Assembly (NCBI RefSeq): GCF_029525575.1
Contig: NZ_JAPDIA010000009.1
Location: 434,001 to 498,000, forward strand
DNA from: Cohnella rhizosphaerae
GTDB taxonomy: Bacteria > Bacillota > Bacilli > Paenibacillales > Paenibacillaceae
Length of the DNA: 64,000 nucleotides
Reading direction: 5' to 3'
This document shows positions 38,901 to 62,349 of the stretch, piece by piece. The translations under genes and the position numbers were made by a program. Position 1 is the first letter of the stretch. Each line of letters starts with the position of its first letter. The notes under the pieces are model-generated. The model had not been told where the DNA came from. It did not search any database and worked only from the letters and a program-made list of their open reading frames with translations.

Positions 38901-41900
38901 CCGGAATTACCCTGTCCGGCAACCCTACGCTGCTCAAGATGGAGCTGTTCGACAAGTTCAAGGCAGGCATCTACATCACGAACACGTCGGTATCGTATCA
39001 AATGGACATCGCAGCCAACATTTTGAAAAACTTCTCGGTCATTCTGGCTGGCGGCAATGCCAATCTTACCTATTACAGAAACAACGGCTTTAACTTGAAC
39101 GGTCAACTGTACGGACGTCTTCAAATTCCGGAGATCGACGTCGGGCTGTTCGATATCGGTCCGTATACGTTGGCCAACCAAACTGTAGGACTCAGCAATT
39201 CTAACGCTTACGCGGCGTTCAGCATTCTCGGTTTCGGCCTCAAAGTGAACTACTCGTTCGGAAGCGGCTCTGTCAGCGTAGGACGCAGGAGCCTCATGGC
39301 GGAATCGACCGGACAGGCCTTCTACGACGAGGACGGCAATGCGGTGGGGCAGTTGAATGCTTTCTCCAACGTGAGCGTGGTCGCTTCGAGCGGCACGGCC
39401 GGTTTCATGAGAGGACTTGCGCTTGCGCCGACGACCTCGACGAATGACGCGGGTACCGTCCATACGGTGACGTTTCCTGACGGCTTGACGGACGATTATG
39501 CCGTGCTCGTCAATGCGGACCCGGAGGACATCGGCATTCTGGATCCGGAAGGCCATCCGTACGGATTGACCTATCCCGGCACGCTAAGCGACGGAACGCC
39601 GTTTTACGACGATCCGAATGCGAATGCGGCGGTCGTGTCCGATCGTACGATTATGATTCGACTGGGCGCGCAGACGGGCGATTGGACGATCTCGTCGAGT
39701 CAATCGTTCGACAGCTCCATTATCGCGATTGCGCCGGTGCCGGAGCTTGCGCGTGCAGCGTACGACGGAGGAACCGGGGCGGCAAGCTGGGATTTGACCG
39801 GACTCGATACGGACGCCGAAAACTATCGCGTCGAAGTCCGCTTGTCCTCGGACAACGGCGACGACCCGGCGGATACGGGCGCTGGCGTACTCATCCATAC
39901 GATCGATATCGATCCTGCGCAGGTGACGGACCGCGCCATTAGCGGCAGCTACGTATTTACGGAGGAAGACTTGCGTTACTTGCAGAGCGGTACGTATTAC
40001 CCTCGGATAACGTTGGTCGGGACGCCGAACGCGGACACGTCCAGATCGATTCCGTATTCGAGCCTGAACGCGAAGCAAGCCGATGAACGTCGTCAATTCG
40101 CTCGCGCCTGGCGCGATCAGCGCTGTTGCGGGCTCTGCGGGCGGCGGCGGCACGATCCATGCGTCATGGAGCGGCGTCGCGGGAGCGGACGGCTATCTGG
40201 TGCGCCTGCTCGATGCGGACGGCAATGCGGTCATGTCGCCGACCTCCTATACGGACGAGCTCGACGGCGACGGCAACCCGACGGGCAACCGGATCGCGCA
40301 CGCAGGCAGGCCGATCGAGTATCAAATCTCGGCGGACGATGCGGTCAACGGCGCTTTCAGTCTTGATTTTGGCGGAATGGAATCCGGCAGCAGCTACATG
40401 CTTGCGGTCACGCCGTTCGCCCTTACGGACGATTCAGGCTCCTCCTACATCTACGGCGCTACGACGGCGACGGACGTCGTCGAAGTGCCGCTGGTGAAGA
40501 TGCCGGTCCTGCATGTGGCGTCGAACCTCGGCGCGATCGCGAGCGATTCGGCGCTCGGCAATGTCCTTGCGGTGAACGGCGACTTCGAGCTGAATATCGC
40601 GACGACTTACATCGGAGCCGAAGACGGGCAGTCCCGTGACCTGGCCGCGAAGTTTACGGTATGGCAGAGCGACGGAACGCTGGACGAAGCGACGAATATG
40701 CCGAACTTTACGCAAATCTATGCCAGCGCCGATTATGAAAATCATATCGCGGTGCCGGTGACCGTTGACGGCGATGCGGGCTCGAGCTTGATTCGGATCG
40801 TGGCCGAGAACGATCAGGGCGACGTATCGGAGTACGGGCTGGCCGTGCGCTACAGCAATCTTCCCCCCGGCTTTGTTCGTCGATACGGATCAGGAAGGGA
40901 AGATATTAACCGATTCGGAGGGCAAATACGAGATCCAGGGCAGTACCGCGCCTTATGCGACCGTATGGGACAGCCAAGGGAATCGCATAACGGCGAACGA
41001 ATCGGGACGCTTCCGCATTAGCGGGACATTAAGCGCCGGCACGCAAGCTTATAGCACGATCACGGCTATCGATGCGTTGGGCAACGTCGCGCAGGACGAT
41101 GTCAAGATCGTAAAGGCTGACACGGGAACGGACCCTGGGACAGATCCGGGAACGAACCCGGGTACAGATCCAGGTACGAACCCGGGCACGGACCCCGGTA
41201 CGAACCCGGGTACAGATCCTGGTACGAATCCGGGAACGGACCCCGGTACAGATCCTGGTACGAACCCGGGAACGGACCCCGGTACGAACCCGGGAACGGA
41301 CCCGGGAACGAACCCGGGTACAGATCCTGGTACGAATCCAGGTACGAACCCGAACACGCCGCAGACGGGGCCAGGGCAATCCGGGGGGACAAACCGACGG
41401 CGGGACGGATAACGGAACGACTGCGGGCTCTTCGTTTAAGGATGTGCGCGCCCAGACGCCTTGGGCAGAAGCTGCGATCGAGCGAGCATACAAGCTGGGT
41501 ATCGTATCCGGCAGAACGCCCGAACAGTTCGCTCCGAAAAGCGATACGCGAAGAGACGAAGCAATCGTGATGCTCGCAAGAGCCCGACATTTGACCATTG
41601 GCGTTCAGGCCGATCTGGATGCGGCAGCCGCCTACTTCGCCGATTGGAACGGACTGGCCGAGTGGAGCAAGCCCTATATTGCTGCCGCTTTCGCGAAAGG
41701 ACTGGTGACCGGCACCGTTCGCAACGGCAAGTATTATATTAACGGGGCCTCGCCCATTACGAGAGCGGAAGTTGCGGTGCTGCTGCAAAATGCATATCGG
41801 CTTGCTGCGGATGCGAGCAACCTCAAGTCTTTCGGTGACACGATTCCTTCATGGGCGGTAGACAGCGTTAGCGCGCTCGCGTCCCGGAGGGTAATCAACG

Positions 41901-41986
41901 GCTATCCCGATTCAACGTTCATGGCCGGAGCCCATGCGACGCGAGCGGAGATCGTGGTCATGCTCATGGCGCTGATCGACGCTTAA
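32978..41986 (+). CDS. giant SLH-anchored surface protein (about 3000 aa), six frameshifts
   Basis: After correction 3000 aa. ATG 32978 follows AGGAGG and opens a signal peptide (LVAMMLSIAVVFTMLPVAA, cleavage at ASA). Residues to about 1000 hold eight repeats of about 115 aa, each opening with (D)xSIGTxAP and ending NDTLTIxVTWP. Then come Ig-like segments, a Ca-binding-looking DSGDGDVSITMDDVN patch near 38080, long beta-rich parts, an Fn3-like domain near 40130, a linker of 19 GT(D/N)P units at 41128-41358, and SLH domains to the stop. Breaks: T7 33239, T5 33383, G6 38070, about 40078 (no long homopolymer), C6 40863 and G6 41383. The repeat family is not one I can name; it is likely a cell-surface adhesin or matrix protein. 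Confidence 0.85.
33100..35990 (+). repeat. eight coding repeats of about 115 aa
   Basis: The motif IGT-x-AP occurs near 33115, 33480, 33865, 34213, 34586, 34936, 35290 and 35660. Each unit continues with a DGxNxFxHA strand, WSxDxGxxY, ASGxF, YKTKYVLTAxxGYxFD, and a closing DTLTIxVTWP strand. Spacing varies between about 345 and 385 bp. Confidence 0.88.
41124..41360 (+). repeat. 12-bp coding repeat, GT(D/N)P linker
   Basis: Nineteen consecutive tetrapeptides GTDP or GTNP, encoded by 12-bp units with synonymous third-base changes, form an extended Pro/Gly/Thr spacer just before the SLH domains. It would lift the extracellular part away from the wall. Confidence 0.95.
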
Positions 41987-42031
41987 GAGGTCGTAACAGG
42001 CGGATGCTCGCTGCGACATAAGCATGTGCCG

Positions 42032-42495
42032 CATCGTTAATGAGCCAAAGTGACTTGCTTGCGAGGAAATAAGGAAGCGCGACATCGTTAATGTGCCGAC
42101 ATTGGGTGCTTGCGAGGAAATAAGGATGCGAGACATCGTTAATGTGCCGACATTGGGTGCTTGCGAGGAAATAAGGATGCGAGACATCGTTAATGTGCCG
42201 ACATTAGGTGCTTGCGAGGAAATAAGGAAGCGCGACATCGTTAATGTGCCGACATTAGGTGCTTGCGAGGAAATAAGGAAGCGAGACATCGTTAATGTGC
42301 CGACATTGGGTGCTTGCGAGGAAATAAGGATGCGAGACATCGTTAATGTGCCGACATTGGGTGCTTGCGAGGAAATAAGGATGCGAGACATCGTTAATGT
42401 GCCGACATTAGGTGCTTGCGAGGAAATAAGGATGCGAGACATCGTTAATGTGCCGACATTAGGTGCTTGCGAGGAAATAAGGATGCGAGACATCG
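42032..42495. repeat. tandem array, nine copies of a 51-bp unit
   Basis: CATCGTTA recurs at 42032, 42083, 42134, 42185, 42236, 42287, 42338, 42389, 42440 and 42491 at exact 51-bp steps. The unit contains GTGCCGACATTGGGTGCTTG and GCGAGGAAATAAGGATGCGA. The first copy is degenerate and the last is cut off. The array fills the gap between convergent genes and is followed by a strong terminator. Open frames on both strands are an artefact of the period. Confidence 0.95.
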
Positions 42496-42513
42496 TTATT
42501 TACGCGACGAAAC

Positions 42514-42557
42514 GAAAAGAGGAACGTCAGGGGCTCGCTCCCGACGTTCCTCTTTTT
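42514..42557. terminator. bidirectional terminator between array and parB-like gene
   Basis: AAGAGGAACGTCAGGG and CCCGACGTTCCTCTT pair almost perfectly and carry T runs on both strands; the right arm overlaps the stop codon of the minus-strand ParB-like gene. Confidence 0.85.
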
Positions 42558-43788
42558 AAATGCGCCTGACGACTTCGGCTCTCGCCGTCCGGCAGGCGTT
42601 CAGATGGCCTTCGAGCCGGCCGATCAGGTCGTCGAGCCCGTCCCGCAGCGCCTCCGGATCGACGGAGGTGGCTGCCTGCAGCTCGGCCGCCAGCGCTTCC
42701 GGCGTCGGCAGCGCCGCGAGCAAATCGCGCAGCGTGACCATCGTCCGCGCGCCGGCTGCCGCTGCAGCCATTGCCGCCACGGCCGCAGCCGAATCGGACT
42801 GGCTAAGCGCTGCCGATCCCGGCTGCGTTCCTGCCGCTGCGGATGCCGTCGCCGCTGCGGCCTGCGCGGTTCCGCCGCTCGCCGCCGCTCCGGCGGCGCC
42901 CGACGTCCCGGCTCCGCCCGCCGCCCCGGCGTCGGGACGCAGCCCTGCGTCGCCCGCTCCCGCACCGCCGGCGGCTTCCGCCTTTTGGCGCTGCGCTTCT
43001 TCGCGTTCCGTCTCCGCGCGCTCGGCTTCGGCCTCCGCCTTGCGCCGCTCCGCGTCCGCCGCCGCGCGGGCCCGTTCCTTGCGGCTCGCCTCGTAGGCGG
43101 ACCAGGTGTCCAGCAGCCCCGGCCCGTCCTTGTAAAGCAGCTGGCTCTTCGTACGCTCCGAGATCGAAGCGTCCTTGAACAGCTTGGCGATCCGCTTCAC
43201 GTCGACGACGGGCATCTCGTCCTTCGCCATCGTAAGGGCCAGGGGATCGCGGTACTCCATCGGCAGATCCTTGAGCGGGAGCAGTTGGTCCTCGGTCAAC
43301 GTGCCTTTGCGGATATCGGTGCCGCTGACGACGAGCTTCTTGACCGCGGGCCCGAACTTCAGCAGCTCGCATTTGTTTTTGATATACGACTCCGGTTTGC
43401 CGAGCTTGGCCGCCAGAAACTTCACCGAGCTCGCGAACTTCGGATCGTTCAGCAGCTTGTCGAACGCTTCGCCTTCCTCGATCGGCGTGAAGCCTTCGCG
43501 CGTCAAATTCTCGGCGACCTGCTCGAGGTAGATCTCCGTCTCGTCGGTCGCGTCCGACACGATCGCGGGGATCGTGTCGCGGCCGAGCTTCGAGCAGGCG
43601 AGGTATCGGCGGTTGCCGTAAATAATTTTGTAGCGTCCGCCCTCGGCCTTGCGCACCTTGATCGGGGACAGCAGGCCGATCTCGCCGATGCTGTTCACCA
43701 GCTCCTGCAGCGACTCCTCGCCGAACCGGTAACGGGGCTGATCCTTGTCTTCGTCGATCAGATTCATAGGCAATTCGATGATTTGCAT
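42556..43788 (-). CDS. orphan ParB/Spo0J-like nuclease/partition-domain protein
   Basis: 410 aa. The start at 43788 has AGGAGA about ten bases upstream. The N-terminal ParB domain is recognisable: LIDEDKDQPRYRFGEESLQE, LVNSIGEIGLLSPIKVRK, then GNRRYLACSKLG in the place of the usual GERR box, and AENLTREGFTPIEEGEAF. An HTH-like middle (KLGKPESYIKNKCELLKFGP) follows. Residues about 225-350 are a charged coiled coil and then an Ala/Gly-rich linker; the last 60 aa form a predicted helical end. There is no parA neighbour and no visible parS. The GERR-to-GNRR change may alter CTP hydrolysis. It could be a plasmid-type, nucleoid-occlusion-like or regulatory ParB; the role is unknown. Confidence 0.8.
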   Translation of the reverse strand: MQIIELPMNLIDEDKDQPRYRFGEESLQELVNSIGEIGLLSPIKVRKAEGGRYKIIYGNRRYLACSKLGRDTIPAIVSDATDETEIYLEQVAENLTREGFTPIEEGEAFDKLLNDPKFASSVKFLAAKLGKPESYIKNKCELLKFGPAVKKLVVSGTDIRKGTLTEDQLLPLKDLPMEYRDPLALTMAKDEMPVVDVKRIAKLFKDASISERTKSQLLYKDGPGLLDTWSAYEASRKERARAAADAERRKAEAEAERAETEREEAQRQKAEAAGGAGAGDAGLRPDAGAAGGAGTSGAAGAAASGGTAQAAAATASAAAGTQPGSAALSQSDSAAAVAAMAAAAAGARTMVTLRDLLAALPTPEALAAELQAATSVDPEALRDGLDDLIGRLEGHLNACRTARAEVVRRI

Positions 43789-47859: not shown

Positions 47860-48372
47860 TCAACCGCGCTTCATCTGCGGCAATACGTCTTGCGCGAGAT
47901 TATCCAGGGCCATCGCGGTACCTTCGCTCATGCCCATTTTGAGCGTCGCTTGCAGCTCTTCTTCCGTAGGCAGGCGGAAGTTTAAGACGAGCGTCGTCCG
48001 GCCGTCGCCCGCGTCCGCGAATCGTACCGTAACCTCTTGCTTCGGAATGACATCCGTCGGATTCGCCTGCTCGTCCGCGAAGGTGACGGCGTACGATATG
48101 CGCTCAAGCGGATGGATTTCCTCATAGATCCCCAGCACCCACTGTGTTTGACCTTCAGGCGAACGCATGCAGTAGTGCCATTTGCCGCCCGGCCTGAGGT
48201 CGATCCGGCAGACCGGAATCGTATACGGCTTGGGCGCCCACCACTTCGCCAGCAGGTCGGGGTTCACGAACGCCTCGTACACCATCTCCCTTGGCGCATC
48301 GAATACGCGCTCCATGATGAACGTCCGGCCATCGACGCGCGTGACCGGCTGATTTGTCCCGTTTTGATTCAT
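47860..48372 (-). CDS. SRPBCC (AHSA1-type) domain protein
   Basis: 170 aa. The start at 48372 (MNQNGTNQPVTRVDGRTFIM) has AAGGAGG seven bases upstream; the longer frame to 48531 runs through the operator and is rejected. Typical AHSA1-like motifs: ERVFDAPREMVYEAFVNPDL, LAKWWAPK, LRPGGKWHYCMRSPEG. The helix-grip fold binds hydrophobic ligands; the substrate is unknown. First gene of a unit with the ArsR regulator. Confidence 0.92.
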   Translation of the reverse strand: MNQNGTNQPVTRVDGRTFIMERVFDAPREMVYEAFVNPDLLAKWWAPKPYTIPVCRIDLRPGGKWHYCMRSPEGQTQWVLGIYEEIHPLERISYAVTFADEQANPTDVIPKQEVTVRFADAGDGRTTLVLNFRLPTEEELQATLKMGMSEGTAMALDNLAQDVLPQMKRG

Positions 48373-48403: not shown

Positions 48404-48423
48404 ATATATCCAATTGGATATAT
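48404..48423. promoter_or_regulatory. 20-bp perfect palindrome, likely ArsR operator
   Basis: ATATATCCAATTGGATATAT is a perfect palindrome 31 bases before the SRPBCC start. Its AT-rich arms around CCAATTGG fit sites bound by ArsR proteins encoded with SRPBCC partners, and its TATA core may overlap the promoter. Confidence 0.75.
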
Positions 48424-48487
48424 AGCTGTCAACGCATATTCGGGTAACCTATACATTTTTTGCCCCTCGCTACATGACTCAGGTCGC

Positions 48488-48563
48488 GCGAAGTCATGAC
48501 CGGCATGACAAAACCGATGACGGCTGCTCACTAGTGGGATCGGCCGCTAAAACTTACGCTAGA
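48488..48563 (+). repeat. 76-bp direct repeat, copy 1 (upstream of the giant SLH gene)
   Basis: Identical, except at one position, to 56701-56776. It contains GTCATG-ACCGG-CATGAC (6-bp inverted repeat), CACTAGTG and GCTAAAACTTACGCTAGA, and ends 33 bases before the start codon of the next gene, where a promoter or operator is expected. Confidence 0.9.
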
Positions 48564-48596
48564 GCATAGAGTCGTCGAGAATACGGAGGTATTGTG

Positions 48597-51500
48597 ATGA
48601 GGTTTATACGAATGCAAAAACGGCACTCGATGCTGCGCGTGTTAGTCGTGCTGGCCCTGCTACTCGGCAGCGTGCTGCCTGGCGGAGTGCCGCGGTCGGC
48701 GATGGCCGGGGATCCGCCGGAGGAAACGATGGCACCGCCGGAGGACGTAAGGAATCTGGACTGGAGCTTGATCGATTACAATCGCGTGCAGCTGCAATGG
48801 GAGAAGCCGTTGCTGCCCGACAGTGCAGAGGAAGATCCGAATATCGAGAAATACGAGATTTACGAAGCGGGGTCCAATGCGGTGTTCGCGGAAACGCTGG
48901 ATACGCATGTCGTCATCGGCGACCTGGCTGAAAAGCGAATTTACAGATTCATCGTCAAGGCCGTGAATGCGGAAGGCGAACGATCCTCGGGCGAAACAAC
49001 GTATCCGGGCACGTCTCCTCAATACTCGGCCGAATTGGCGTCAGCCTCCATCGGAAGCGGAGACGAGCGCATGATGGATTTAAGCGCGGACGGATCTACG
49101 CTGCTGCTAGCTAACGGCGCGGGGTCCTCCATCTATGAATTCAAGACGGCGACAGGCGTTCTGCGCGCCCTCCCATTGACGCAAGACGGGGAACCGCTCA
49201 ACGCGTCGATCAACGGGCTGTCCGTCAGCGGAGACGGTTCGGCGATCGTTTTTGCCACGGCATCCGATAATTTGAAAGGAATTCCGCAGCCGGGCGGCGA
49301 GAAAACCGTTTACGTATACGATGTCCGCAGCGACACGCTGCAAGCGATCAGCCAGCCGGGTGCGAGAAGTACCGAACCTTCGATCAGCGCAGACGGCAAT
49401 CGTATCGTCTACGATGAAGCCTCCCAGATTTATCTCTACGAGCGGCAGTCGAATACGCGTATTCTCGTGAGCGCCAATACGGCGTCGCTGCCGAGCGACG
49501 ATCTCAACTACCGCCCCGTGATCAGCGCGGACGGCAAGTATATTGCTTACTACTCCTCCGCATCGGATCTCGCGGGCGTTCCGGCGGACGGTCCGGAGCA
49601 GACGCTGGTCGTTTACGATGTTGATTCGCACGCCGTAGACAGCTATTCGCAGGAGGCAAGCAGGTATAATCAGCTCGCGATTAGCGATGACGGCTCAAGG
49701 ATTGCCTTCACGGCGCGGTACGGAGGATTCGCGAAGCCATTCGTGTACGACAGGACCACAGGCGAGACCAAGTATCTCAACAACGATCGTCCCCAATCGG
49801 AAGACAAAAATAAATCGTATTTGAACATTTCCATCAGCGGAGACGGACGTACGGTGGCGGCGGATCTACTGCACCACGACAAGGCGCCCGGCCAAGCCAG
49901 CGCTTTCGGCGAACGTTTCGACCTGACCGAAAACCAGGACGGAGGCATCGTCGTCGCGAAGGCTTCGCAAACGTTCAATCCCGCATATACGACGGCTCGC
50001 AATACGCTCGATCGCGACGGAAAAAAATTGTATCTCCTGAACGTGACAACGCTGTACGTCGAGTGCAGCGAGACGTGCGATGCAGGCGAGCCTGGCGGTC
50101 ATATTCAAACGGTGTCCTGGAGCGTGCCGGGCGACGCTTGGGCAGGCGACGAGCTGAAGCAGGGAGCGACAATGAGCTTGCAGGCAATCGGCCAGCCGAG
50201 CCTAGCGCTCGAGGCTATCGTCGACTATAGCCTGCTGTCCGAAGCGGGGCCGCCCGAGAAAAAACAGGCGGTCGTCCCGCTGAGCGAAGATGCGCAGGCT
50301 GCGGGCATCTATCGCGCACAATGGCAGCCGCCTTCTGGAACGAGCGCAGTCGACAAGCTGTCCGCGAGGGAGAAAGACGCAGGCGAAGCTGTCTCCGCGC
50401 CCGGGCTGCCCGTACGGATTGCAGGTATGCTGCGCGTCGCGATTTCCGGAAAGGAAGGACTTCCGGAGGCGATGACGCTGACGGCTACTCATGAGGGCAA
50501 AGCCCCCCGTATCGGCGACGATTCGTCCCGGCGCGCAGTCATACGACCTCCCGCTCGCTGCGGGAGCGGCCTATGCCGTCAAATTGTCGGCGGAGACCGA
50601 GGGCGGAGAAGAGATCGTGCTTGCTTCGGACGCCGGCATTCAGGTGACGGGGGGCGCAGTGACGCAGCTTGCGCTAACGCCGACGCTGCCGGCAACGTTG
50701 CAGGTCAAGGTCGAACTATTCGGCGAGCCTACGCAAGAACTTAAGGTCATATTTAAGAAAGACGGCAGCGACGAGCCGGTGGCCGAGGTCAAGCCGGACG
50801 GGAGCGGGATCGCGACGCTTCCCGGCAGCCACCTGGCAGGCGAGGCCTTCAAAGTGTCGATCGCCGTTCCGGCCGGTTATGTCGCAGGCGGGGAGCAACG
50901 TATCGTACTGAAGCTCGGTGCGAATGCTTTGCGCTTCACCGTAAAGAAAGAAGACGCGGCAGTACGTGATCTCTTCATGACCTACGCGAAAGTGATAGCC
51001 GGAACAACATATGAATCGCTGCCCGTGCAGGACAGCGACGCGACGCTTGTCGTAGAATCGGACCCCGGCCAGCAATTGGCCGCGGACGTCGGCTACTGGT
51101 TCTGGGAGAACCAAGATGACGCCGAGCCGGTCAAGCGGACGGCGCGCATCGCGCTCGCCGAGCGGGAAGGGAGCGGCAGATACGAGGGCAGCTTCCGGAT
51201 CGTCGCCGGCATATCCAGAATCGAATCGGCTCGCGTCATCTATAACGGGCATGCCGTCGACAGGGACTATGCGATCGGGAAAAATGTCGCCGGCAGAATG
51301 ACCTTTCGAATGCCCGAGCCTGAGCAGCCGCTGACGGGCTGGGAATCGGCCGCGGTGGGAAGCTGGTTGAAGGTCGCCTATTTCAAGGACAGATACATGA
51401 ATTATTCCGCGAACGGCATTCTCGGAGATGACCTGGCGCTTACTTTCGACGTACCGTTTTCCGGCATCGAGTATGCGGCGACACTGATGCCCAAGAGCGG

Positions 51501-54500
51501 CTCGGCGCTCTCCATTCTGCAATTTAACGCCAAGCAAACAGGCTATGGGCGCACCGACTTAATAGATATTCCTGCAGCCTACTTTGTATCGCTGGCAGCA
51601 GTTCTGCGATTTGAAGACGGCGCGGAGGGCGGGGCGAAGTATTGGTTGGAAGATCCGGCCGGCGCTGTCGTAAGCGAAGGAACCGCTTGGATCGGCCGGG
51701 ACAGCACGCTTAGACTGCCGCTCAAGCTGTCCTCGGGCGGAACCTACCGGCTGAAGCTGGTGCCGAACGATCCGGCTTATCAACCTGCCGAGCAGCCGAT
51801 CCTCATGGATCGCCTCAACGTCGCGGCGAGCGTGACGCTAAGTCCGAAGCCGCTCGGGAAGCTCGAGGGCGTCGTAAAGGGCAAGGACGGCAAGGCAGCG
51901 GCAGACGCCCAGATCGTAGCCGAGCTGCTGGACGACGGCAAGAGCAAGCTTTTCTATGCGAGGACGAATGCTTCAGGCGCTTATTCGCTGCAGCTGCCGG
52001 AAGGTCAAATTCTGATTCGCGCGATCGCGACATCGTCCGTTCAGGGCTATCAGAGCCAACAGGAGTCCGTCCGGATCGCCGCGGGCAAGACAGCGCAAAA
52101 AGCGCTTCAGATTCTGGATTTTGCCGATGTGGGCGTGAAGCTGTACACGCTGCAGCCGGGCGGCACCTGGCAGGGACCGATACCGATCGACGCATTCGTC
52201 GCAGGCGCATATAAATTATCATCCGACCGCATCATTCAATCGCTGCAATCCCGCATGATCCTGCGCGCGCTGCCGGGTGAGACCGTGCAGATCTGCGCGG
52301 ACGGCCGGGATCTGAACCTGTCCGCCGAATGCAAAGCGGTCAAGATCGGCGAGGACGGCAAGGCCGAAGTCGAGCTCCGTCTTAAAAACGAAACCTCCAA
52401 AGCCGCGGTCCGACTGCTCGGCGCGGACGGACAGCCGCTGACAAGCGCCTTCGTGGAACTGCTCAACGGCGAAGGTCAATATATACCTAACATTAATTAT
52501 AATCTTGCGCCAGGCGAAGAACGCGGCATCCTGACGCTGCAGGGCTCGGGCAGCTATAAAGCGACCTTCTACGCGAACGGCGGCTTTGCAGAAGTTTCAT
52601 TCAGCACCTCGCAAGGAGAGACGACCGACCTGGGCGCGGTCGTGCTGCAGCCGTACGGCGCGTTCGCGAGCGGCAAAGTCAAGCAGGCTGTCACCGTGTC
52701 CGATTCGAAGGTGGCGCCCGGCAGCACGACGACGCTGCGCGTTCTCTATCAGAATTACTATGCGCAGTCGTTCGCCGCCGAGGATGCGGAGATCGTCGTC
52801 GCGCTGCCGGCGGGCGCCGAGCCTGTCGAAGGCACGGCAGTCGTGGCAGGCAAGGCGGCTTCCTATAGCGTAGAAGGACGGAATCTGATCCTGCCGGTCG
52901 GCACAGTGGCGGACAACAAGCAGCAGAGCGCGCAAGTCAAGCTTCGGTTTGACGAAGCGGTGGGCAACGAGCCCGCGCTCCAGGCTTCCATTCGCTACAA
53001 GATGAAGGGCGAGCAGTCAAGCGAGATGTTGGGCATGGCCGTGCTGTCCAAGGTTCGCGTCTCGCTCAGGGCGCCGGCGCTGACGGTCAAGCGCCAGCTG
53101 TCGCTCGGCGGTTCGGCGCCTGCGGGAGCCGCCGTAACGATTTACGACGGCAGGAACCCGATCGGCACCGCCACGGCCAATAAAGACGGTATATGGTGGG
53201 CTGACTCGACGCTGACCGGAAGTGACGGCGTCTATATGGAGCATAGACTAAGCGTTGAGGCCGACGACGGTACAGGGGCGCGAGTCTCCGGCGAAGAGGC
53301 CGTCGTCGTCTACGATCCGAACGATCCAGGTCTGGTATCGATGACGATTTTGTCGAATCACAAGGAAGTAACCTTTAACGTTGAAGGCGGCGTCGCGGTA
53401 TTTCCGCTCTCCGTCGTTACCAACGCGCCGATCGCTTACCGCCTGAATTTCAGGGATCCGGAGCGGGTGTACGACGTTCGCGTGCAGAACGGAGATACGC
53501 TGTCGCAGGCGGCAAAGGGAGCCGACGGCGTATACCGGGGCGTGATGCCCTTCTCGAAGAGCTTCGGTCAAGTGTGGATCGACTACCGGACGAAGAGCGA
53601 TTCGGCCGAGCTGGCCGCCCGTCCGGCGATTACCGAGGAGGAGCTGCGGAATTCGCTGCCGGCGGCGCTGCGGGACATCGCGGTGTCGAGAGTCACCAAT
53701 GCGGGAGAAGTGACGCCGGGCGGAGAGCGGATGCCGGAAGGCGCATTCGAAGCCGACGTGCGGGTCGCGGAAGGCGTCACGTCCACGATTCGGGGGAACG
53801 TTCGAATCGGTTGCCTATACGGTAAGCGACAAGGATCTGGCTTGGCAAGCGCGTACGGGCTTATCCGTTTTCAACTTCAAGGAGAGCCATACAGAGCTTA
53901 AGGACGGATCGCTGCAGACGACCGTCAGCTTCGTAATGCCGGCCGCTTCTGCTGCGGCCCGCGGAATTCAGGGCGTCTCGATAGGAGGCATCGGGATCAC
54001 GCTGAACGGGCTGATCAAGTTTGGAGATGCCGGCTTTAAAGGCTGGTCTGCTGCTAAAGCGGGGCAGGATTCGCTGAAGAACTATCGGCGTGCCCAAGAT
54101 CTGCTGCAGGCTGCGGAAGCGATATGCGATCCCCAGGCGAGAGAATATTATTCGGAGTTTGCGCGGGAAGCACTGTTCGACGTAAAAGCCCACTATATGG
54201 CGTCTTTGACGCTGAAGGCGATCAAAAACTTCGGTAAGATCGATAAAGGGCCTGGGGTGCTGTTCAGCGCCGCGAGCGAGTATGCGTCCGTGACGTTCAA
54301 GGAAGTCGAAAACAACGAGATGGACGAACTCGAAGCGCATATCAAGCAGTATTCATGCAAGCTGAAGCCTTACCCGCCGACCGATCGCAAGGATCCGCCG
54401 GCGGCGTCGCCCAAGTACATCTGGGATCCGAGCGGTTACGTCTACGAAGGCATGCCGTCCAATCGCGTAGAAGGCGCGACCGCTACGGTGATGGAGCTGG

Positions 54501-56644
54501 TCGGCGACGCTTGGACCGTATGGGACAGCGCGTGGTACGGACAGGAAAACCCGCAGTCGACGGACCGTGAGGGAAGGTACGGCTGGGACGTGCCGGAGGG
54601 CAAGTGGAAGGTTCGTTACGAGAAGGATGGCTACGAGACGGCGTACAGCGATGCACTAGACGTACCGCCGCCTCAGCTCGAGGTCAACGTGCCGATCGTC
54701 TCCTACGCGGCGCCGGAGGTGCAGTCCGTGCGTCCGGCACCGGGCGGAGCCGGCGTGACCGTATACTTCGCCAAGCCGGTGAACGTCGAGTCGCTTGAGG
54801 ATGCGTTCACGCTGAAGGATGCGGCAGCGGCGGATGTCGCGGGAACGGTCAAAGCCAAAGATGTCTATACGGACAAAGACGGATTGGCGCTCACGATGGA
54901 GGCCGAATTCGTTCCCGATGCCGCGCTTCGTGTCGGCGACAGCTATACGCTGACGGTGCTCGGCACGGTACAGAGTTATGCGCGCGTACCGATGGGCGAG
55001 GATGAGACAGCGACATTTAAGGTGGAAGCTTCCGACATGACGCCGCCTGCCGATGTCACAGCTCTTGAAGGCGGAATGACGGACGAAGGCGCCGTGCTGA
55101 CATGGGGCGATCCGTCCGACAAGGATCTTGCCGCCGTGAACATTTACTGGAAAAAGGCTGCGGACGCTGCGTACGGCCATCCTGTCACGGTGTCCGCCGG
55201 AACGATGTGGGGAGCCGTCCCCGGTCTTGACGCGGACGCCGAGTACGAATTCAAGGTTGCTGCGGTAGACGAGGCAGGCAATGAAGCGCGCGGCGTCGCA
55301 TTCGACTGGACGCCGCAGGGCGGCGCGGACTTAACGGCGCCGCTGCCGGTCTCCGCATTGGCGGCAAAAGCGCAAGGGGACGGTGCGATCCGGCTGACTT
55401 GGACGGATTCGTCGTCCGTCGATCTGGCAAAGCTGCGCATCGAATGGCGAATCTCCGGTTCACAAGACAAATACGCGACGGCCGAGGTGGAGAAGGGCAA
55501 AGGCGAGTTTACGGCTAACGGCCTGAAGCCGCTCACCGAATATGAGCTTCGCGTAATTGCGGTTGACGCTTCGGGGGAATGAATCGAAGCCCGTCGGCGC
55601 GTCGGCCTCGACCGGCGCGTCCGGACCGAGCGACGGACCGGTAGGCTCGGGGGCGGCGGTCCGACGGATCCGAACGAAGAGAGCGGCGATCTCGGAGAAG
55701 CGGGCGCGAGCCTGAGCTTCTTCGGCGGCAACTTCAAGCTGCAGCTGCCTGGCAGCGGCGGCGCGGCCGGCGCCGCCAAAAAGGTGACGGTATCGAAGGC
55801 GCTTAATTCGCCGGCACCGGCGGACACGCATCTTCGGCTGCTGTCGGACGTCTATGCCTGGAAGCTTGAAGCGGGCAGCCGATTGTCAGCCGCCGTCAAG
55901 CTGACGATCGCGTACGATGCGGCGCGGCTGGACGGAGCGGATCCGCGCAAGCTGGGGGTGTACCGTCAGGATGCCGCCGATAAGACGCGTTGGACCTATG
56001 TCGGCGGCGTCGTGGACCGCGCGGCAGGCTCGGTGGAGGCGGATGTATCGGAGCCGGGCGCCTACGCAGTGCTGATAGCCGAGTACAAGTTCGGCGATCT
56101 GGCGAATCATTGGAGCCGCGAAGATGTCGAAGCGCTGGCGTCGCGCGGAATCGTGACCGGCGATCCGGACGGTTCGTTCCGTCCGAACGGGAAGATCACG
56201 CGGGCGGAATTCGTGAAGCTTTTGCTGCCGGTTTTTGCGAACCGGGCGGGAGCGAATCAGGGAGCCTCCGGAACGTTTGCCGATGTACCGCAGGACGCCT
56301 GGTATGGAGAAGCCGTATCGATCGCGACGACGGCAGCCATCGTGCAGGGCGCGGGCGGCAAGTTCAGGCCGACCGATCCGGTCACGCGCGAAGAGATGGC
56401 CGTCATGCTGTATCGGGCGCTCGGGATCGTCACGGACGATCTGGATCCCGAGAAGCTGCTGAGCGTATTTAACGACGGCGCTAAAGTGTCGGGCTGGGCG
56501 AGGATGCAGGTTGCCTATGCCGTCAAGGCAGGGCTGCTCAAGGGCAGCGGCGGCAGGCTGAATCCGGGCGCTGCCGCCACGCGAGCCGAGGCGGCAACCG
56601 TGCTGCTCCGCGTTCTGGAAGCGCAAGGAAAGATAGAGAAATAA
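48597..56644 (+). CDS. giant SLH surface protein (about 2681 aa), frameshifted
   Basis: About 2681 aa after correction. ATG 48597 is seven bases after GGAGG; signal peptide LRVLVVLALLLGSVLPGGVP, cleavage at AMA. Order: an Fn3 domain, a PD40/TolB-like beta-propeller (DGSAIVFATASDN, SADGNRIVYDEASQ, SADGKYIAYYSSASD), several carboxypeptidase-regulatory-like beta-sandwiches (GVVKGKDGKAAADAQIVAEL), a DUF11-like section near 52700, a helical segment near 54000, two Fn3 domains (55030-55590), a Gly/Ser linker and three SLH domains to the stop. Breaks: C6 at 50503, G5 at 53792, and compensating shifts at G5 55573 (extra base) and G5 55649 (missing base). The function is likely surface scaffolding or adhesion. 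Confidence 0.85.
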
Positions 56645-56670
56645 CAATAGGTCAAGGTTAAATAAGAAAC

Positions 56671-56703
56671 CGCTCCTTCTGTCATGCGCATGACGAAGGA
56701 GCG
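56671..56703. terminator. hairpin overlapping the second 76-bp repeat
   Basis: CGCTCCTTC-T-GTCATGC pairs with GCATGAC-GAAGGAGCG, a 16-bp stem with one bulged T. There is no T run on the + strand, but on the minus strand GGTTTCTTATTT follows. The stem contains GTCATG/CATGAC, the same inverted half-sites as in the 76-bp repeat that begins at its right foot. Confidence 0.6.
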
Positions 56704-56776
56704 AAGTCATGACCGGCATGACAAAACCGATGACGGCTGTTCACTAGTGGGATCGGCCGCTAAAACTTACGCTAGA
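56701..56776 (+). repeat. 76-bp direct repeat, copy 2 (upstream of the cupin gene)
   Basis: Second copy of 48488-48563, one mismatch (T for C). It ends 35 bases before the cupin start, so both copies sit at the same distance from a downstream start codon. Confidence 0.9.
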
Positions 56777-56811: not shown

Positions 56812-57459
56812 ATGTCAGCAACGCAAACGCAACGTACGATTCGCAATCCCCAGATCGGCGACGAGGTCACCTTTCTGGAGACCGCGCAGGAATCGGGCGG
56901 CGCTTACGAATGGGTGGAGGTCCGCCTTCAGCCCGGGGGCGGCACGCCCTTGCACTACCACACGACGTTCGAGGAGGAGTTCGAAGCGATCGAGGGCAGG
57001 CTGTCGCTCGATTGCGACGGCAAGACGCTGCTGCTTGAACCGGGCCAGAAGGCGGTAGCGCCGCTGGGATCGAAGCATCGCTTTTACAACCAGGAGAAGA
57101 CGGAGATCGCGTTCCGCGTGAAGATACTGCCGGCGCGCAGCTTCGAGAAGTTCCTGCGCATGCAGTACGGCCTGGCGCGGGACGGCAGAACCGGCGCGAA
57201 CGGCATGCCGAAAAGCATGCTGGAGCTGGCCGTGGTGATCCGGATGGGCGAGAGCTATCTCATCGGTCCGCCGGTCTGGTTACAGAAGGGCATGTTCGGT
57301 CTGCTGTACCGGATCGCGCGTTGGCGCGGCATTGAGCGGAGGCTGCTGGATGCGTACTGTCCGAAGTCCGGGGCGAAGAAGGGATCGGGCGAGCGGTATG
57401 CGGGGGGTATCCTGAAGCGTAGTTACGAAGTCGGAAAATCGGATGCCCGGCACCCCTAA
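56812..57459 (+). CDS. cupin domain protein
   Basis: 215 aa. ATG 56812 follows AAGGAGA. The N-terminal 100 aa form a cupin barrel: VRLQPGGGTPLHYHTTFEEE and FEAIEGRLSLDCDGKTLLLE with the H-x-H and E metal ligands, then PLGSKHRFYNQEKTE. The C-terminal half is helical with two hydrophobic stretches (SMLELAVVIRM, GMFGLLYRIARW). The reaction is unknown. Its upstream region carries a 76-bp sequence shared with the giant SLH gene, so the two may be coregulated. Confidence 0.85.
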   Translation: MSATQTQRTIRNPQIGDEVTFLETAQESGGAYEWVEVRLQPGGGTPLHYHTTFEEEFEAIEGRLSLDCDGKTLLLEPGQKAVAPLGSKHRFYNQEKTEIAFRVKILPARSFEKFLRMQYGLARDGRTGANGMPKSMLELAVVIRMGESYLIGPPVWLQKGMFGLLYRIARWRGIERRLLDAYCPKSGAKKGSGERYAGGILKRSYEVGKSDARHP

Positions 57460-57568
57460 ACGACGCCGCGATCGCGATTGGAAGCGGGGGCTGACCGGGA
57501 TCGCGCGGCCTTGGTGCTGACCGGGGCTGAAGCGATCGGCAAAGTTTTAAAGAAATCCTAAACAGCAA

Positions 57569-57610
57569 ACGACGAACCCCGAACCTGTAGCAGGTCGGGG
57601 TTCGTTTTAT
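57569..57610 (+). terminator. terminator of the cupin gene
   Basis: CGAACCCCGAACCTG pairs, with one bulge, with CAGGTCGGGGTTCG around a 3-nt loop and is followed by TTTTAT. Confidence 0.85.
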
Positions 57611-57646
57611 ATGCAATGGTTCGGTCAGCCCAATCTGATCAGGTAC

Positions 57647-61827: not shown

Positions 61828-62290
61828 GCAGAAGTCTCAACCAGGAACAAACAAGCCACCTCGGCCGCACCTCGGACCGCGAGAAGTCTTAACCAGAAAC
61901 AAACAAGACCCCTCGGCCGCCCCTCGGACCGCGAGAAGTCTCAACCAGAAACAAACAAGCCCCCGCGTCGCCCCTCGGACCGCGAGTAGTCTCAACCAGA
62001 AACAAACGCCTCCCCCCGCGCCGCCAATCGGACCGCGAGAAATCTCAACCAGAAACAAACAAGCCACCTCGCCGCTCCGCGAACCGCGAAAAGTCTCAAC
62101 CAGCAACAAACAAGCTACCTCGCCGCTCCGCGAACCGCGAAAAGTCTCAACCAGCAACAAACAAGCCCCCGCGCCGCCCCTCGGACCGCGAAAAGTCTCA
62201 ACCAGCAACAAACAAGCCCCTGCGTCGCCCATCGGACCGTGAGAAGTCTCAACCAGCAACAAACAAGCCACCTCGGCCGCCCCGCGGGCC
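61828..62290. repeat. tandem array, nine copies of a 51-52-bp unit
   Basis: The T of AAGTCT (variants AAGTCT, TAGTCT, AAATCT) lies at 61835, 61887, 61939, 61991 and 62043 (52-bp steps), then 62094, 62145, 62196 and 62247 (51-bp steps). The unit contains GAAGTCTCAACCAGAAACAA followed by a C/G-rich variable part ending CGGACCGCG. It aligns with the unit of the array at 655-1365 (GAAGTCCCGACCAAGAACAA). It lies between convergent genes, with hairpins on both sides. Confidence 0.95.
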
Positions 62291-62301
62291 GCTGGACGCA
62301 T

Positions 62302-62349
62302 AAAAAGGCAGGTCCGATACAGCCAGCGCGGCTCCGGACCTGCCTTTTT
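62302..62349. terminator. bidirectional terminator right of the array
   Basis: AAAAAGGCAGGTCCG and CGGACCTGCCTTTTT form a perfect 15-bp stem with T runs on both strands, and serve the minus-strand gene that ends at 62396. Confidence 0.9.

Follow-up and report, generated by a model that had tools for sequence, protein, structure and literature searches.

Two near-identical promoter-like blocks before a giant SLH surface-protein gene and a cupin gene in Cohnella rhizosphaerae point to a shared candidate regulator

Two adjacent genes of Cohnella rhizosphaerae, one for a giant SLH surface protein and the other for a cupin, are preceded by almost the same stretch of DNA. What does this stretch do, and why are there two of it? 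The window analysed here is the whole stretch of 64,000 nucleotides (contig NZ_JAPDIA010000009.1, positions 434,001 to 498,000 of the forward strand, assembly GCF_029525575.1) taken from a genome of 8.5 Mb in 9 contigs that we call G000; the other G numbers denote compared genomes. Block 1 (48488-48563) and block 2 (56701-56776), both on the plus strand, form a 76-nt direct repeat with a spacing of 8213. The original prediction had described near-identical copies differing at one base and ending 33-35 bases before two start codons, and direct comparison bears this out. That is, 75/76 bases match, with C against T at base 40 as the sole mismatch. Block 1 stops 33 bases short of an ATG at 48597 (30 short of a GTG at 48594), and block 2 stops 35 short of the ATG at 56812. 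Such a match cannot be chance. The explanation that we regard as quite likely, judging from the sequences and their comparison, is that the block is a complete activator-dependent promoter, and that a DesR-like NarL/LuxR regulator, encoded with a hybrid kinase 30 kb away, would switch on the SLH and cupin genes. Two copies would then exist because a promoter-plus-SLH unit sits upstream of a promoter-plus-cupin unit.

The gene behind block 1 (48594-56644, plus strand) is broken in the window into open reading frames at 48594-50744, 50491-53901, 53936-55582 and 55784-56644. Its orthologues in relatives are intact, each a single frame of 2684 (G005), 2684 (G013) or 2694 amino acids (G036), and the G005 protein has three SLH domains (PF00395), fn3, CarboxypepD_reg and a PD40 match. 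Since four single-base length differences from the G005 gene lie in or beside runs of G or C, and the G000 assembly is 91.5% complete, the breaks in the window are probably assembly errors. A terminator-like hairpin follows the gene (56671-56703, plus strand; fold of -22.1 kcal/mol, z -6.6) and abuts block 2. Its T-tract is present in G005, G013 and G036 and missing in G000; in G005 and G013 the hairpin is followed by 27-28 more bases, T-tract included. Because the G000 hairpin lacks this tract, transcription may possibly run from the SLH gene into the cupin gene in this genome.

Behind block 2 lies the gene for a Cupin_2 protein (56812-57459, plus strand; PF07883, E 4e-10); all six genomes that carry a block have a close orthologue of this gene (83-95%) behind one. 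On the left side the neighbour is a divergent AHSA1 gene (47860-48366, minus strand; PF08327, E 4.8e-27). Control of this gene by block 1 was considered and rejected: the promoter scan gives AHSA1 a promoter-like site of its own (48432-48403, minus strand), and G005 keeps the block with no AHSA1 gene adjacent to it. Within that promoter-like site, at 48405-48425, lies the palindrome ATATATCCAATTGGATATAT, also found before AHSA1 in G012 and G018, which is possibly a repressor site. Elsewhere in the window, units of 12 nt and of about 51 nt are repeated in tandem (41075-41386, 41954-42600 and 61830-62326).

The search for further copies that the original prediction had proposed was run, and no third full copy was found in the 8.5-Mb genome; the other eight matches are 15-25 nt long. 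The block with its left flank was then searched in 60 genomes (G000 included), of which nine matched and none had more than two full copies. Two blocks 8.2-8.3 kb apart are found in G000, G005, G013 and G036, and one block, directly 5' of the cupin gene as the single-copy counterpart of block 2, in G012 and G018. In G017 and G021 the block is diverged and precedes a different giant SLH gene (SLH'). The match in G029 is just 20 nt long, and we did not count it as a promoter-type site because its surroundings do not align with the block. Within a genome, the two blocks are 69/76 (G013), 61/76 (G005) or 65/76 (G036) identical, and the near-identity of the copies is thus particular to G000.

Comparison therefore reveals two states of the locus. 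The order is block-SLH-block-cupin in G000, G005 and G013, and block-SLH-block-cupin-SLH' in G036. In G012 and G018 it is block-cupin-SLH', with AHSA1 before the block and no SLH gene between them, so the presence or absence of the SLH gene among close relatives coincides with the duplicated promoter. The ancestor of G000 probably carried SLH' after the cupin gene, as G036 still does, because a probable deletion scar at 57479-57629 (plus strand) matches both ends of the G012 gene: 57479-57535 corresponds to its 5' end and 57550-57629 to its 3' end and terminator.

Which state came first? The original prediction held that the direct repeat could delete the whole surface-protein gene by recombination and leave the cupin gene under an intact promoter. 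The predicted product, AHSA1-block-cupin with one block, does occur in G012 and G018, although it could also be the state before an insertion. The G012 block has the left flank of copy 1 and the right flank of copy 2, a pattern that fits block-by-block recombination and also the locus before insertion. Alongside the promoter reading, then, stands a history that we consider plausible, if on balance the less probable one: the one-block state is older, the SLH unit and second block were inserted later, and the block pair was never a deletion site. Both G012 and G018 keep the cupin-SLH' order without an upstream SLH gene, as this history would have it, and rpoB does not place G018 inside the SLH carriers. 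G012 fits it less well. In the rpoB tree, a single-gene tree in which the G012 assembly has a frame break, G012 groups with the SLH carriers G013 and G036 (93/97), G000 groups with G005 (97/96) and G018 is unplaced. Moreover, G012 shares AHSA1 (99.2% identical) and the cupin gene (94.9%) with G000 on either side of the missing SLH-plus-block unit. The evidence favours loss of the SLH unit in G012, because rpoB nests this genome among SLH carriers. Other neighbouring genes of G000 and G012 are about 85-92% identical, against 99.2% for AHSA1; local gene exchange at the locus is likely, because the AHSA1 similarity conflicts with the rpoB grouping, and such exchange would blur gain and loss.

Tentatively, and with a little less assurance than we give the insertion history, we suggest that the operator-promoter block is both a control element and an exchange boundary. 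Giant SLH promoter-plus-gene units would be added or lost by homologous recombination at the block, such that a lineage could exchange one surface protein for another and keep its remaining genes under the same sensor. Recombination between the two blocks would excise a single unit, and the cupin gene would retain a whole promoter, as in the two one-block relatives. Surface-layer loci recombine in other bacteria. The S-layer/SLH switching systems have SLH-domain surface proteins in common with this locus, but in Cohnella the promoter-plus-gene units are bounded by the operator itself.

What, then, is in the block? The inverted half-sites GTCATG-n5-CATGAC and the motif CACTAGTG, on which the original prediction had built its operator, are present letter for letter. 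Their reading as an inverted, palindromic operator did not hold up: neither the GTC prefix nor the TG that follows CACTAG is conserved in the sites of other Cohnella genomes, which keep direct RTGAC repeats and T(C/A)ACT instead, and inverted GTCATG half-sites were rejected as the operator. VraR has an ACT-AGT site as its consensus, and CACTAGTG resembles it in the block only; the resemblance is not kept in the other sites across the genus. In the layout that comparison supports, three RTGAC half-sites (+0, +9 and +21) are followed, 11 bp beyond the last of them, by an inverted T(C/A)AC; after a further 20 bp comes TTACGCT. In block 1 the array spans 48496-48534 (ATGAC at 48496-48500, 48505-48509 and 48517-48521, TCACTAG at 48528-48534), and the -10-like TTACGCT lies at 48554-48560, 20 bp after TCACTA. 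In block 2 the array spans 56709-56747 (ATGAC at 56709-56713, 56718-56722 and 56730-56734, TCACTAG at 56741-56747), with TTACGCT at 56767-56773. All of these elements are on the plus strand, and both arrays are among the matches to the generic pattern described below. An additional CATGAC stands 5' of block 1 (48473-48478, plus strand), and (A/T)TGAC occurs near the same place in several other left flanks.

The array and the -10-like element are kept in the 10 block copies of the six genomes. Of the columns, 14/17 vary in the spacer (50-66) and 5/47 in columns 3-49, while TTACGCT (67-73) is invariant (0/7). The sigma-70 promoter scan gave no match and no -35 at either block, and an ordinary sigma-70 promoter was ruled out on this ground. 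Because an array stands at a fixed distance from a -10-like element and the -35 is absent, the layout is that of an activator-dependent promoter; a -10-like element at a fixed operator distance without a -35 is a feature of activator-dependent sigma-A promoters.

Pattern searches extended the array beyond the blocks. The generic pattern (TGAC-N5-TGAC-N7..9-TGAC-N5..6-TMAC) matches G000 in exactly three places: block 1, block 2 and a site 146 bp before the gene of the candidate regulator. When the pattern was lengthened, loosened and given the -10-like element, it matched both blocks and one more place at 2 mismatches (control 1). Across 37 Cohnella genomes the generic pattern has 33 matches in 15 genomes (reversed control 1), the block core with at most 3 mismatches occurs at 19 places in 12/37 genomes (reversed control 0) and a second core form at 14 places in 7/37 (control 0). 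Twenty-eight sites share the 12- and 11-bp geometry, which the search expression itself imposes; most of them have a further RTGAC 9-10 bp upstream, and many, not all, carry an element like TTACGCT or TTACAAT, 20 bp beyond T(C/A)ACT(A/G). In 898,548 strand-bases of surrounding DNA, each of the 18 pattern matches is either a block or an array upstream of a regulator gene. A count of RTGAC by itself is less telling than the array pattern, and its comparison set includes genes beside arrays: the 300-bp regions upstream of other genes have a mean of 1.4, and 12/151 have five or more.

A gene of the same module adjoins every one of the 33 generic-pattern sites. The neighbour is a divergent regulator or kinase gene at 14 sites and a giant SLH/SLH' gene or cupin gene at 15; of the remaining four, one has GH44 alone beside it, one the gene for a 199-aa protein, one that for a 156-aa lipoprotein-like protein and one that for an FAD oxidoreductase. 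The protein beside an array site in G006 has three SLH domains too. Single neighbour cases are circular, because some of the reference genes came from beside such sites, but recurrence across genomes (of GH44, the 199-aa protein, the FAD oxidoreductase and SLH') is not. Array-like sites also occur in clusters: contig C14 of G017 (loci L129 and L130) has five in some 20 kb, along with two regulators of the candidate family, and G007 has two divergent ones 88 bp apart (L138:7209 and L138:7297).

In an order-wide search of 296 genomes (7 of them Cohnella), the other 289 gave 17 matches and the reversed control 7. Six matches are occurrences of a single sequence with no relation to the module. We inspected 16 of the 17 (the omitted one is on a short stretch). 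In G124, a genome of another family, the array adjoins two module genes, a GH44 piece and the 199-aa protein, and one of the G106 matches lies 615 nt from a receiver-domain match; none of the others among the 16 matches the module reference set. The G124 array suggests module transfer or an older origin.

Which regulator could read these sites? The diverged array sites adjoin two-component systems with a NarL/LuxR-type regulator, a HisKA_3 kinase and a GH44 glycosidase of ~1200 aa. Four regulators from beside such sites were made into a profile (A1) and searched in the 37 Cohnella genomes; the best match scores 352-358 bits in the six block genomes. In G000 it is a NarL/LuxR-type gene at G000:C6:520487-521140, 30 kb downstream of the blocks, and the distance is 30-42 kb in the five block genomes that have both on the same contig. 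The G035 orthologue has a receiver domain (PF00072, E 1.6e-29) and a GerE domain (PF00196, E 2.2e-13). The partner kinase is a hybrid (HisKA, receiver, HisKA_3) in G034 and in the block-genome orthologue of G036, its frame is broken in the G000 assembly, and a weak 7TMR-DISM match was seen in the G034 kinase only, of the two kinases examined.

A tree of 30 regulator matches (the best from each genome having one, plus a second G017 copy) unites 18 genes, which come from 17 genomes, in one clade with support of 98/98. The strict array occurs in 15/17 genomes with a clade regulator and in 0/20 of the other Cohnella genomes (p 1.5e-8, too generous a value because related genomes are not independent). 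With the mismatch-tolerant site lists, the figures are 12/17 and 1/20. A four-element array lies at most 300 bp upstream of 14/18 clade genes, of 0/3 in the sister group and of 0/9 others; it is missing at the second G017 copy and in G013, G027 and G007. In the block genomes the second spacing of these regulator-upstream arrays is 13, not 12, and they were missed by a position-weight scan, so a regular expression was used instead. All 18 clade genes have the recognition helix EGT(V/I)RNY, which is no clade marker on its own because lower-scoring matches in G033 and G024 have it too. NarL-type regulators of another subfamily (loci L136 and L137; 31-39% identity to the candidate family) were set aside as partners rather than excluded.

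It is also possible, though unlikely, that the block is such a promoter but answers to another regulator, be it a paralogue among the response regulators or an activator of unrelated type, and that the array upstream of the candidate marks a further target (the gene itself or its divergent neighbour). Several related regulators exist per genome, with four matches in G000 at E <= 1e-50, G019 has a promoter-type site (the one exception in the tolerant lists) and no clade regulator, and the four clade genes without an upstream array point the same way. The distribution of the strict array argues against it. Only one of the four G000 matches has an array nearby. Seventeen further regulator matches score at least 279 bits, a line drawn after the best match per genome had been seen and with second-best matches filling the gap; just one of them (G034) has a strict array within 1 kb. 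The half-site, furthermore, equals that of DesR and RR11.

The candidate regulator as activator is thus the reading we prefer. We infer that its phosphorylated form, a NarL/LuxR-family response regulator with DesR-like specificity, would bind the array and recruit sigma-A RNA polymerase to TTACGCT as a -10 without a -35, and that the giant SLH protein and the cupin would be turned on together. In four of the six block genomes (G005, G012, G018 and G036), the regulator-side array is followed by TTAAGCT and then by a GH44 gene, and the glycosidase would be turned on there as well; G000 and G013 have no GH44 gene at that place. The inducing signal may be a plant polysaccharide, as the GH44 partner suggests. 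Co-regulation of the two genes, the central claim of the original prediction, gains support from the comparison: the array and -10-like element are kept while the spacer drifts, and the array also stands before the regulator and other module genes. As a prediction, shared regulation of the SLH and cupin genes is well supported.

How does the array compare with known operators? DesR of Bacillus subtilis is a NarL/LuxR-type regulator. For DesR, PMC11034029 gives the motif [ATGACA]-N2-[TGTCAT], and for pneumococcal RR11 it gives [ATGACATTTGTCAT]-N7-[AGTGACA], with a third half-site near the inverted pair and positive autoregulation of TCS11. The half-site ATGACA in these accounts of DesR and RR11/TCS11 (Streptococcus pneumoniae; PMC11034029) is the same as that of the block, where binding is predicted. 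The arrangement differs, in that DesR has inverted half-sites whereas the Cohnella array has three direct repeats, spaced by 9 and 12 bp, and an inverted T(C/A)AC. The hybrid kinase (HisKA, receiver, HisKA_3) and the targets (surface SLH proteins, cupin and GH44) are likewise unlike those of the DesR and RR11 systems. Reversed, the fourth element is RTGAC exactly in 12/33 sites and with one mismatch in 21/33, a partly circular count since TMAC is in the search pattern; the last two elements have the DesR spacing in 7/33 sites and one base more in 26/33. They would appear to resemble the DesR inverted pair with two direct half-sites added upstream. The half-site letters of VraR/LiaR operators differ from those of the Cohnella block; for LiaR of Streptococcus mutans, PMC4447274 describes an inverted repeat of 16 bp that has an A-rich element at its side. 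The solved structures nearest by sequence are VraR (E 6e-40) and then DesR, the latter matching in the receiver domain only. Among the best 25 of 80 NCBIfam models none reaches its cut-off (the top one, NarL, scores 138.7 of 250 bits), and because no model of these 25 fits we liken the regulator to DesR in the way it would work but do not call it DesR: neither NCBIfam nor the receiver-only match to the solved DesR makes it an orthologue of DesR or of any named equivalog.

Could the repeat instead be mainly a recombination, integration or mobile-element sequence, with any effects on expression secondary? A near-identical direct repeat bounding 8.2 kb and the existence of one-block relatives are what such a sequence might produce. 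We nevertheless find it very improbable, given that no searched genome has more than two full copies, that conservation falls on the half-sites and the -10-like element, and that the same array stands alone before single genes in other genomes. Least probable of all, and hardly credible, is a transcribed leader (a riboswitch or structured RNA) common to both messages: the block does lie just upstream of two start codons, but the window has no Rfam match at gathering score, the blocks fold no better than shuffles (z -1.0 and -1.2) and the most variable columns lie between the array and the -10-like element, and a structured RNA was rejected.

With the block read as an activator-dependent promoter, a class of giant SLH surface proteins gains a candidate regulator, an operator and a short list of targets, and a polysaccharide-degrading GH44 enzyme would be tied to these proteins under one sensor. 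A literature search found no regulon of this kind among its top matches on Cohnella S-layer/SLH, GH44 two-component systems, S-layer direct-repeat deletion and Cohnella two-component regulons. The SLH' genes offer an observation of their own. Their upstream regions in G035 (L096), G017 (L101) and G021 (L104) have, following the array, a conserved leader, CCTCGCAYGAG ... GCGAGG ... GGTTCATTGTG, between the promoter and the SLH' start, which is possibly a structured 5' leader.
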